Positions 2-54,818 of a stretch of DNA of 64,000 bases are shown piece by piece. The notes under the pieces were generated by a model. That model saw nothing but the letters and a program-made list of their open reading frames with translations. It had not been told where the DNA came from and searched no databases. Positions within the stretch are counted from its first letter, which is position 1, and every line of letters starts with the position of its first letter. The position numbers and the translations under genes are program-made. The stretch comes from Thiohalorhabdus sp. Cl-TMA (GTDB taxonomy: Bacteria; Pseudomonadota; Gammaproteobacteria; Thiohalorhabdales; Thiohalorhabdaceae), in the NCBI RefSeq assembly GCF_041821045.1, contig NZ_JBGUAW010000009.1, positions 62,001 to 126,000 of the forward strand, written 5' to 3'.

Positions 2-304
2 GACGCCGTCGCCTGGGCCCGGGAGGTGACCGAGCGCGGCGCCGGTGAGATCCTGCTCACCAGCATGGATCGGGACGGCACCAAGGACGGCTTCGACCTG
101 GCTCTGACCCGCACGGTGGCCGACTCCGTCGCGGTCCCGGTGATTGCCTCCGGGGGCGTGGGAAATCTGGACCACCTGGTGGAGGGGGTGCGCGACGGTG
201 GCGCGGACGCGGTCCTTGCGGCCTCCATCTTCCACTTCGGCGAGCACTCGGTGGCGGAGGCCAAAGCGGCCCTGGCCGCCGCGGGGATCGAGGTGCGGCA
301 ATGA
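2..304 (+). CDS. hisF: Imidazole glycerol phosphate synthase subunit HisF (3' part only)
   Basis: This is the C-terminal 100 residues of HisF, the cyclase subunit that closes the imidazole ring and releases AICAR in histidine synthesis. The 5' part lies outside the window. The frame is open from base 2 and carries the family signature [13 protein letters not shown], with the conserved active-site Asp of the second half-barrel, followed by the phosphate-binding VIASGGVG loop and the AASIFHFGE segment near the end. The stop overlaps the next start (ATGA at 301-304), so translation is coupled to hisIE. Family assignment is secure. Confidence 0.96.
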
Positions 305-49675: not shown

Positions 49676-49792
49676 GACTCCCCTCCTGTTCGTACGCCGC
49701 ATGGAAGGGATCAGGATAACAGCACGTGCCTACCATGGCGTGGGCCCCGCGGCGGGCTTAGGGTGGGGGGAAAGGCGAGGCCGGAGGGCAGT

Positions 49793-50533
49793 ATGGAATT
49801 GCAGGACGCGGTGATCATCGTGACGGGCGCCGGGCGGGGGATCGGCCGGGCCACGGCGCTGGAGCTGGCCCGGGCGGGCGCCCGGGTGGTAGCGGTGGCA
49901 CGAACCGCCCACGGGGAATCGGGTGTGGCGGCCACGGTGGCGGCCGTGGAAGCGGCCGGAGGCCGGGCCCGTGCCGAGCCCGCGGATGTCCGCGACGCCG
50001 AGGGGGTCAAGGCCTTGATGGAGCGCGTGGCCGAGGCGGAGGGCCATATCGACGGGCTGGTGAACGGCGCCGCCGTCTTCGCAGGGGAGCGGGGGCTCCT
50101 GGATATCTCCCCGGACCAGTGGTCCGAGGTCCTGGATACCAACCTCACCGGAGCCTTCCTGTGCCTGCGGGCGGCGGCGCCGCACCTGATCCGCGCCGGC
50201 GGCGGGGTGGTAGTGAACATGACTTCCGGGGCCGCCGTGCGAACCGGATTCCTGAACGTGGCCTACGGGGTCTCCAAGGCGGGTCTGGACCGCCTGACCC
50301 AGGGGGCCGATGCCGAGCTGCGCAAGGACGGCATCCTGTGCGTATCGCTTTCGCCGCCGGTAACGCGCACGGAGACCGTGGAGGCCATTTACGGCTCCGG
50401 AACCGAGGACCTCTATGCCGCGGAGCCGGAGCGCACCGCGCGGGCGGTTCGGAAGCTCATAGTCCACCATGCGGCGGAACGGGCGGGGGGCGTGGTCACC
50501 GTTCGGGAGCTGATGGAGGGAGAGGCCGATTGA
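49793..50533 (+). CDS. Short-chain dehydrogenase/reductase
   Basis: A 246-residue classical SDR. The nucleotide-binding VTGAGRGIGRA (TGxxxGxG), the NGAA motif, the catalytic Ser in NMTSGAAV and the YGVSK (Tyr-x-x-x-Lys) are all present. Arg residues after strand 2 (VARTAHG) suggest NADP(H). Substrate unknown. GGAGGGCAGT precedes the ATG at 49793. The gene-free region follows. Confidence 0.88.
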   Translation: MELQDAVIIVTGAGRGIGRATALELARAGARVVAVARTAHGESGVAATVAAVEAAGGRARAEPADVRDAEGVKALMERVAEAEGHIDGLVNGAAVFAGERGLLDISPDQWSEVLDTNLTGAFLCLRAAAPHLIRAGGGVVVNMTSGAAVRTGFLNVAYGVSKAGLDRLTQGADAELRKDGILCVSLSPPVTRTETVEAIYGSGTEDLYAAEPERTARAVRKLIVHHAAERAGGVVTVRELMEGEAD

Positions 50534-50549
50534 GGGGCTATCCCCCTCC

Positions 50550-50640
50550 GTCAAGGGAAAAGTTTTTTCCGAATCCGGGAGAATAGTTTCCCACAGGGGC
50601 TGTGGAGAAGTTTGGGGAAAACGCTTTGATAGCTCGTCTG
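50550..50640. repeat. Imperfect direct repeat, copy 1, with CCACAG-GGG-CTGTGG hairpin
   Basis: It starts GTCAAGGGAAAA, contains a perfect 6-bp stem CCACAG/CTGTGG (50592-50606) flanked by TTTC and GAGAA, and ends near GATAGCTCGTCTG. The paired CCACA/TGTGG halves resemble back-to-back DnaA boxes. Confidence 0.7.
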
Positions 50641-50799
50641 AAGCCTTGCGGCGCCGGGCTTCCGGCGGATATGGTTAATATTTGTGCAACACAAAAAATC
50701 CTTTATAAACAAAATAGTAGGTTTATTTTCGGGCGCCCCGGGGGTTCAGCCGGGATCGGGGCCCCTTCGAGCTGGCAGGTGTTAAGGCTTGTGAACAAA

Positions 50800-50813
50800 T
50801 GTCAATATTGACA
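50800..50813. repeat. Perfect palindrome TGTCAATATTGACA, copy 1
   Basis: A 14-bp perfect palindrome directly after TGTGAACAA. The same 14 bases recur at 51172-51185. I do not recognise the binding protein. Confidence 0.8.
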
Positions 50814-50921
50814 GCAATGTCCGCTGTCCACGAACTGTCCATGAGAAGGCTGGAGTGACCTTCGGCTCCGGTCGGAACCTTCTCAAGGACCGTGCGGTGT
50901 ACAGCCTTCGAGCCCGCTGCA

Positions 50922-51013
50922 GTCAAGGGGAAAATTTTTCTGGAAGGATCCGGACGGTTTCCCCACAGAGCTTGTGGAAAAACCAGTGGAAAAGGTTTTG
51001 AGCGTTCGTTCGG
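50922..51013. repeat. Imperfect direct repeat, copy 2, with CCACA-GAGCT-TGTGG hairpin
   Basis: Related to 50550-50640 along its length (GTCAAGGGGAAAA at the start, ATCCGG, GTTTCCCCACAG, TGTGGA, GGAAAA, TTTTGA and CGTTCG towards the end). TGTGGAAAA at 50973-50981 is a consensus DnaA box on the minus strand. Confidence 0.7.
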
Positions 51014-51171
51014 GCCCCCGAGTCGTGGGCGAATCGGGAGCCCGGCTCATTCCTTGGGCAGAAAGGAAAAATACGAAATAACAAGGTACTGCGTGTAAGT
51101 TTACGACCAATAGGGATTTTTCGCCCCGCGCGGGGCCACGACAGCGCCGGATGTTGACGGATGGGCGCGGA

Positions 51172-51185
51172 TGTCAATATTGACA
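51172..51185. repeat. Perfect palindrome TGTCAATATTGACA, copy 2
   Basis: An exact copy of 50800-50813 at 372 bp distance. A half-match, GATGTTGACGG, lies 22 bp upstream. Confidence 0.8.
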
Positions 51186-51246
51186 GCCCCTTTCCGGAGG
51201 CGGCCGGCTGCCGCGAAGCGGGCTGTGTGGCTCCGGGAGGGAGCGT

Positions 51247-51277
51247 AAAAAAAACGGCCCGGCGGAACCGGGCCGTA
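51247..51277 (-). terminator. Rho-independent terminator of the chemoreceptor gene
   Basis: Read on the minus strand, ACGGCCCGG-TTCCG-CCGGGCCGT forms a perfect 9-bp stem followed by a run of at least eight T. It lies 26 bp after the chemoreceptor stop. Confidence 0.95.
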
Positions 51278-51303
51278 GCCTGATAAGCGGTACGGGGCGC
51301 AGC

Positions 51304-53172
51304 CTAGTCCAGCTTGAACTGCGCCACTTCCTCGGCAACCTGGCTGGCCATATGGTCCACCTGTCCCGCCGCTTGGCGGATCTGCTCGGTGGCGCTGGTG
51401 ACGCTGGCCACCGCGTCCTGGATCTGTCCCAGGTTCTCGGTGTTCTCGGCCATGGTGGCTGCCAGCTCCTCCGCGGCTGAGGCGATCTGGTTGGCCATGG
51501 AGTCGGTGGCCTCCGCCTGGGTGCTGATGGTCTCCATGGCCTGGCGGAGCTGGTCCATGGTGGTGGTGTTGCTGTCCACCTGACTGCGGAATTTCTCCAG
51601 GATGCCGCCGATCTCGCCGGTGGCCGAGGAGGTCTGCTCGGCGAGCTTGCGCACCTCGTCGGCCACCACGGCGAAGCCCTGTCCCGCCTCGCCGGCGTTG
51701 GCGGCCTCGATGGCGGCGTTCAGCGCCAGCAGATCGGTCTTCTTGGCAATGCTCTGGATGGTCTCGGTGATCTGGTTGACGCTTTCCGTGGTCTCGCGGA
51801 GCTCCTCCATCTGCCGACTGGCCTGCTCGGCGGCCTCCCGGCCGCTGTTGGATTCCCGGTTCACCTTGCCCGCGGACTCCGAGACCTCGGAGACGTTGCT
51901 GGCCACGTCCTGGACCACCTTGTTCACTTCCTGGGAGGAGCTGTTCACCTGCTCCACCTGGTCCATCTGGGAGCGGGCGTTCTCCTGGAGGCCCTCGGCG
52001 GAGGCGTTAAGCTCCTCGCTGGCCGCGGCCAGCTGGTTGGACTGCTCGCGGCTGTTGCGCATCCGATCCTGGAGCTTGTCCATGAGCTCGTTGAAGGCGG
52101 CGCTGGCGCGGCCGATCTCGTCCCTGCTGGATTCGTCCAGGCGTCTGGTCAGGTCGCCGTCGCCCGTGGCGATGTCATGGAGGCCGCTGGCCATGCGCTG
52201 CAGGGGCTGCGTCACCAGGCGCCCGGTGGCCATGGACAGGAGCAGAAGCACGGCCACCACGGCTCCGGCGAGCCCCACCATCTGAACCGAGACATCCCTT
52301 ACGACCCCGTTCCAGGCGGTGGTGACATCCTTGAACATGCGGATCCGGCCCACGGTTTCGCCGGAATAGTCCGTGAGGGGCATGGTGGCGGTCACGAAGG
52401 TTCGGTTCCCCACGTCCACCCATTTACCGCCGGCCTCTAAGGGGGATTGGCCAAGGACCTCGCGGACCTCCGGAGCGGAATAGTCGTAGTACACCAGATT
52501 GCCGCGCTTGAGGTCGGAGTTGCCTGCCTCAAAGCGTCCCGCGGCGCGGAACACCTTCTCGAAGATTCCCGCGGCGAAGGCCGTGCCGGTCTGTTCGGCG
52601 GCAGTCTCGAGGATGGCGTGGGCGCTGGAGCCGAGCTCCACCGTGCCCACCTGCTCGCCCTGATAGGTCACCGGCGCCACCAGCCGCAGACCGAGCCCGG
52701 CCCGGCCCACCTCCAGGCCCCGCACCCGCTTGCCGTCCTGGTTGGCCGTAACCACGGTTTTACGGAACCCGGAGAGGTCGTCGCCGTGCTTGCCGGGCTT
52801 GTGGGCCCGGAAGAAGCTGTGGCCGTCCGGGGTATGGAAGTGGAACTGCTGGATGCCGTATTCGTCGTGAAGACGTTGCTCGTAGAGCGGCAGGGTCAGA
52901 TCGGCCAGGCGCCGCCGGTCCCGTTCGGCAAAGGCCCGGACGATCTCCCGGTTCTCCAGCAGCAGGTCCATGGACATGGAAAGGCTGTTTGCCTGGGATT
53001 CGTAGGAGGCCTCCACCATCCGCTCGAAGGTGCGCAGGGAATCCAGGCTCCGCTGCTCGATGGCGCCCGTCGTGCTCCAGAACACGAAGGCGGCATTCAT
53101 CAGTCCGCCGAGGACGATGACCGGAAGCAGGAAGACCAGCAGCTTGCCGCGGACACTGTGCATCAGACGCAT
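51304..53172 (-). CDS. Methyl-accepting chemotaxis protein with periplasmic Cache-type sensor
   Basis: A 622-residue chemoreceptor. Membrane helices near 10-30 and 285-310 enclose a 250-residue periplasmic sensor of the double-Cache kind. HAMP (about 310-365) and a long coiled-coil signalling domain follow, with the hairpin [20 protein letters not shown] and [24 protein letters not shown] precedes the ATG at 53172. The ligand is unknown. Its signalling region shares a 135-bp identical DNA tract with the neighbouring receptor. Confidence 0.92.
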
Positions 53173-53276
53173 GGAGGTGCTCCCCTGTAGCAGGCATATC
53201 GAGGTATGTCCGGAGGAGTAACGAATTCCGGACAGTCGCCAGGGATGCAAAAACCTCGCCTAATGGCCTGCCGGGC

Positions 53277-54818
53277 TCATTCCAGGCGGAACTGCTGCGC
53301 AAGATCGGCCAACTGGCGGGCCAATGTGTCCACCTGTCCGGCGGCCTGCCGGATCTGCTCCACGGAATCGGTGACCGACGACGCGGCGCCGTGGATCTCT
53401 CCCAGGTTGTCGGTGGTCTCGCTCATTGTCGCCGCCAGCTCCTCCGCGGCCGCGGCGATCTGATTGGCCATCTGGTCCGTTCGCTCCGCATGGGAGCGGA
53501 TGGTCTCCATGGCCTGGTTCAGCTCTTCCATGGTGGCGGCGTTTTCGTCCACCTGGGCGCGGAATTTCTCCAGGATGCCGCCGATCTCGCCGGTGGCCGA
53601 GGAGGTCTGCTCGGCGAGCTTGCGCACCTCGTCGGCCACCACGGCGAAGCCCTGTCCCGCCTCGCCGGCGTTGGCGGCCTCGATGGCGGCGTTGAGGGCC
53701 AGCAGATCGGTCTTCTTGGCGATGCTCTGGATGGTCCCGGTGATCTGGTTGACGTCCTCGGTGGTCTCGCGGAGCTCCTCCATCTGGCGGCTGGCCTTTT
53801 CGGCGGCGCGGTTCCCCGTCTGGCTTTCCTGGTTCACCTGCCCGGCGGCCTCGGAGACCTCGGTGATGTTGTTGGCGACGTCCTGGACCACCTCGTTGAC
53901 CTGGCGGATGGAATCGTTGGCGTTGTCCACCCGCCCCACCTGGTCCTGGGCGCTTTCCTGAAGACCCTCGGCGGAGGCGGTGAGCTCTTCGCTGGCGGCG
54001 GCAAGCTGGTTGGACTGCTCGCGGCTGTCCCGCATCTGCTCTTGGAGCTTCTCCAGCAGGCGGTTAAAGGCCTGGGCGAGGCGTCCGGTCTCGTCACCCT
54101 GGCGGTCGGCCAGGCGCCGGGTGAGGTCGCCGCGCCCGGAGGCGATCTCGGTCAGGACCCCGGTCATTCCCTCCAGTGGTCGGGTGACGGATCGGCGAAT
54201 GAAGAGGAAGACCGCGCCCAGCAGCGGCATGCTGAGGAGCACGGCGATGAAGAACAGCTTGACGGTAAAGGAGCGGGCGGCGGAGAAGCTGTCCTCGAGG
54301 GGGATCTTCATGCTCACCGCGCCGAGCACCGCCCCCTCCTCGACGTTGGTATGGCACTGCAAGCAGTTCTTGCCCAGGTAATTGCGCCGGGCCTTGGTGG
54401 GGATCACGGAGCGAAGCAGCCCTTTTTCCGCGTTCACCCGGAACACGGGCTCGCCGGAATCCAGCGCCCGCCGTTCCAGGGAGCTGCGGGCCTGCTCCTC
54501 CTCGCGACCGGCGCCGTAGAGCGCCGCCACCTTGGCACCGCGGATCACCCGAAGGTCGTGCACGCTGCCCTGCTCCCGGATCTGATCCAGGAAGCTGCCG
54601 CGATTGTTCATCTGGCCGGTGATCATGAGGGTGGTCAGGCCGGCCATGGTGGTCTCATGGAGGGTGCGGGAGAAGTCCCGTGCCTGGTTGGTGGCCAGCT
54701 CGCGCTGTTCGAAGAAAACCCAGGCCACCATGCCGGTCCAGGCCACGATCAGTGCGGCCCAGATCAGGGCGGTGAGCCGGGCGCCCAGACTGCCGCGCAA
54801 GGCGCTGAGAAGTCGCAT
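53277..54818 (-). CDS. Methyl-accepting chemotaxis protein with c-type haem motif in the periplasmic domain
   Basis: A 513-residue chemoreceptor. Membrane helices at about 12-35 and 185-208 flank a periplasmic sensor with a CxxCH haem-c motif (C152-LQ-C155-H156 in [13 protein letters not shown]). This matches the family of haem-containing receptor sensors described in Geobacter and suggests redox, O2 or NO sensing. HAMP and a signalling domain with [19 protein letters not shown] follow. The start is ATG 54818 behind GGGGAGGACC. It is upstream of, and in line with, the other receptor. Confidence 0.9.

Follow-up and report, generated by a model that had tools for sequence, protein, structure and literature searches.

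A probable tandem pair of DARS-type DnaA-reactivation modules between convergent genes of Thiohalorhabdus sp. Cl-TMA

Convergent genes leave a gap that needs no promoter, which raises the question of what the ordered DNA in one such gap of Thiohalorhabdus sp. Cl-TMA might be. The window, the 64,000-nucleotide stretch of DNA analysed here, contains an SDR gene (+) facing an MCP (chemoreceptor) gene (-), and in the gap between them lie two units of a 372-bp tandem. The original prediction considered a replication origin, a captured plasmid origin, a terminus or partition site and duplicated small RNA genes, and named no described element with such a layout. Relatives have in fact been described, namely DARS1 and DARS2 of E. 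coli. We consider it very probable that the two units are DARS-type (DnaA-reactivating sequence) modules in tandem, predicted to convert ADP-DnaA to ATP-DnaA.

Compared with itself at an offset of 372, the segment 50550-50820 (271 bp) shows 53.5% identity, against a background mean of 25% (sd 4%) across offsets 300-450. The predicted recurrence of a segment of about 92 nt stands in this respect, but the two copies of that "92-nt repeat" are only 63% identical (58/92), and their identity is centred on DnaA boxes and a GTCAAGGG block. The 14-bp palindrome TGTCAATATTGACA does recur at exactly 372 bp (Table 1).

Both window modules have three DnaA boxes at 0/+14/+26, with box I opposed to boxes II and III. 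The reported fit to TTWTNCACA is perfect for box II of module 2, but this is the sole perfect box in the window, where 0.34 would be expected by chance. Single-box statistics are not significant; significance rests on the spacing of the triple. In known DARS elements, the mechanism of which is described in PMC8682772 and PMC4245941, the core consists of three boxes with I and II opposed, such that a head-to-head ADP-DnaA pair loses ADP (PMC8682772). As read from the sequence, this predicted three-box core, with boxes I and II opposed and the E. coli inter-box spacing, is present in both window modules.

Table 1. Features of the tandem, its flanks and the second DARS2 triple. Box scores are matches out of nine; offsets are from the start of box I.
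Feature	Position	Strand	Remarks
SDR gene	49787-50533	+	left flank of tandem
Module 1 DnaA box I, TTTCCCACA	50587-50595	+	8/9; position 0 of DARS triple
Module 1 DnaA box II, TTCTCCACA	50601-50609	-	8/9; +14, head to head with box I
Module 1 DnaA box III, TTTTCCCCA	50613-50621	-	8/9; +26
Module 1 IHF-like site, AAACAAAATAGTA	50707-50719	+	7/9 to WATCARNNNNTTR; +120; weak alone
Module 1 DnaA box IV, TTGTTCACA	50790-50798	-	8/9; +203
Palindrome TGTCAATATTGACA, copy 1	50800-50813	.	exact repeat
Module 2 DnaA box I, TTCCCCACA	50959-50967	+	7/9
Module 2 DnaA box II, TTTTCCACA	50973-50981	-	9/9
Module 2 DnaA box III, TTTTCCACT	50985-50993	-	8/9
Module 2 IHF-like site, TAACAAGGTACTG	51079-51091	+	7/9; +120; weak match
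Module 2 degenerate sequence at box IV position, TGGGCGCGG	51162-51170	-	box IV lost
Palindrome TGTCAATATTGACA, copy 2	51172-51185	.	exact repeat
Intrinsic terminator of MCP gene	51254-51276	-	neighbour feature, outside the element
MCP gene (chemoreceptor)	51304-53178	-	right flank of tandem
Second DARS2 triple and IHF site, E. coli K-12	L042:3452-3583 (NC_000913, about 2969451-2969582)		

The core was searched for as TTNYCCACA-N5-TGTGGANAA-N3-TGTGNA, with at most two mismatches, in a sample drawn evenly over the class Gammaproteobacteria. This pattern occurs in 229/276 genomes, and its reversed form, used as a control, had no match in the class genomes sampled. Lengthening the first spacer by one base left matches in 3/276 genomes; lengthening the second left 18/276, several of which are loose matches to the original sites, the window's among them. 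In the phylum beyond the class the pattern was found in some families and is missing from many. In all modules of the genome studied here and of G001 and G002, the boxes are spaced and oriented as in E. coli DARS1 and DARS2, starting at 0 on the forward strand and at +14 and +26 on the reverse strand; single boxes are degenerate in some modules. Across 536 kb of sequence from the genus, triples scoring at least 22/27 were limited to the three DARS loci and one extra site in G001, 3 kb from its counterpart of the window locus. A BLAST search for relatives of E. coli DARS2 in the class sample gave two short matches only. According to PMC10380432, many proteobacterial species have conserved sequences resembling DARS1 and DARS2, so neither the DARS family nor its distribution is new.

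The genome encodes five DARS-type modules at three loci (two tandem pairs and one single). In addition to the window locus (locus A), a second tandem pair at C1:290.4/290.8 kb (locus B), which neighbours an asparaginase-2 gene, was reached by a short exact match. Locus C is a single site at C1:324.1 kb, with a counterpart at C6:305.4 kb in G001 and possibly one in G002. All three loci recur in G001, where A and B likewise form tandem pairs, and in part in G002. A search of relatives at the DNA level located the element beside maf, in the same gene neighbourhood, in two genomes of the same genus. The expectation of an organised, conserved, DnaA-box-based element in a gap that needs no promoter was borne out. 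The palindrome is missing from the orthologous G001 modules, which have TGTCAA-like half sites only. In the genome studied here, the SDR gene and two chemoreceptor genes (49787-54818) lie between maf and a cupin gene. The maf-cupin gap of G001 is apparently filled by the DARS pair alone.

The DnaA boxes at the window locus adjoin AT-rich blocks, as might be expected if this were a replication origin or a captured plasmid origin. However, dnaA is on a different contig, at C1:49.8 kb, followed by dnaN and recF and preceded by yidC and mnmE (gene names taken from translations), and it is there that GC skew changes sign, from slightly negative before dnaA to mostly positive after. On the window contig the skew is positive through the locus without inversion, neither dnaA/dnaN nor other replication genes were found near the locus, and the same element is present at three loci. 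Both origin readings were rejected as highly improbable. The evidence also gives no support to a terminus or partition site. Duplicated small RNA genes sharing an operator (the palindrome) would fit the units of repeat and palindrome in the same order, and there is one weak promoter-like site at 51154-51181. Yet the locus has no Rfam match, its RNA folding is not unusual (z -0.55), no terminator was found inside the element, and conservation tracks the DnaA and IHF sites. This candidate was likewise rejected, and we give it almost no weight.

Downstream of the core, further sites are held at set distances. The discovery set comprised 52 modules from across the class but outside the genus; 26 of them have a forward-strand IHF consensus (at least 8/9) at +117..123, whereas other windows of equal width average 0.55. 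This offset was fixed beforehand and then tested on 58 further independent modules, of which 41 have the consensus there (elsewhere, mean 0.76 and maximum 5). A fourth reverse DnaA box, first noticed in the discovery set, is at +200..206 in 44/58 of the independent modules; modules lack phylogenetic independence, so such counts are not probabilities. The distance from IHF site to box IV is 81-85 bp in 53/57 cases and 72-74 bp in 4, with about one helical turn between the groups. Module 1 matches the class-wide registers of both the IHF site and box IV, and has DnaA boxes on both sides of its weak IHF-like site. IHF-like sites at the set distance are weak in the window (7/9) and better in the locus B modules of this genome and G001 (8/9 at +119), where the boxes at +190/+191 are weak.

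The palindrome has no role in the DARS model. It is at +213 of both modules, is retained in module 2 despite the loss of box IV beside it, and has no other occurrence in the 3.74-Mb genome at up to one mismatch. Class-wide, GTCAA is somewhat enriched after box IV (21/78, against 3.3 in shuffles). Because counts of 14-17 of 107 are attained by other stretches, we claim no class-wide GTCAA motif.

An IHF site between the core and box IV recalls datA, in which IHF lies between boxes 2 and 3 (PMC4585315), and datA shares with the window the combination of DnaA boxes and IHF. The locus might accordingly be a DnaA titration site or a datA-like inactivation site, with boxes on either side of an IHF bend retaining DnaA or stimulating hydrolysis of ATP instead of nucleotide exchange; some titration of DnaA is to be expected wherever boxes cluster. 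However, datA has the opposite activity and no 0/14/26 triple (none above 21/27 in the E. coli datA region, the best being 5/9/7), whereas the head-to-head triple seen here is the DARS core. We regard this alternative as improbable; titration of DnaA could be the main role of these sites.

The nearest described systems are those of E. coli. DARS1 (bioD-uvrB) has the three boxes at 0/+14/+26 in the orientations of the window modules, a 7/9 IHF-like match at +121 and an 8/9 box-like match at +203, both in the registers found in the window, but is single copy rather than a tandem pair. It has been described with only minimal stimulatory accessory regions (PMC8682772). DARS2 (rppH-mutH), the core of which was positioned using deletion primers printed in PMC4585315, also shares the core spacing and has IHF-like sites downstream (+105/+109). 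It differs in requiring Fis sites FBS2-3 and in having a strong box at +211 in the opposite orientation. A 5-bp shift of its IHF sites in the direction of the Fis sites is more harmful than a 10-bp shift, and its right half was dispensable in the same study (PMC4245941). A second and weaker triple lies in that right half, 316 bp after the first; it is degenerate (6/9, 9/9, 7/9) and is accompanied by a perfect IHF consensus at +119. In the part of the literature covered, we know of no description of this triple as a second module.

Tandems of modules that combine a core, an IHF-like site and box IV also occur in G209 (contig C206; three, about 324 bp apart) and G456 (C1:5094449 and 5094914; two, 465 bp apart). 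These arrays are independent tandems in distant members of the class. In G168 and G258 the tandem copies are of cores alone.

If the window modules act as DARS elements, ADP-DnaA would bind box I and box II in a head-to-head arrangement, box III being next to box II. The head-to-head contact would loosen ADP, and the released apo-DnaA would take up ATP for the next replication round. IHF at +120 would probably bend the DNA back, allowing DnaA on box IV (+203) to meet the core complex; we infer this loop because the distances are phased. Two copies may provide a higher reactivation capacity at one locus, or an extra, independently regulated copy. The genome also has Hda, which belongs to the opposing arm of the DnaA cycle. 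A second, weaker match to the DnaA C-terminal domain was seen in G001 (C8:178339-178530) and not in the genome studied here.

DARS itself is known, but the tandem arrangement and the fixed IHF/fourth-box layout seem to be new: in the literature searched we found neither tandems at two loci nor set positions for the IHF site and the fourth box. More broadly, DARS may at root be a four-box, IHF-bent module (0/14/26, IHF at about +120, box at about +203, helically phased) that spread over Gammaproteobacteria and was tandem-duplicated several times, leaving DARS1 as a decayed copy and DARS2 as a modified tandem pair. We hold this view tentatively, as slightly more likely to be wrong than right. 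If it is true, DnaA reactivation would generally include an IHF loop to a fourth box, a step largely lost from the E. coli model, and a general four-box/IHF geometry for DnaA reactivation is predicted. On the DARS reading itself, an unexplained repeat becomes a probable site of replication-timing control, and the core pattern allows such sites to be recognised from sequence in most members of the class.
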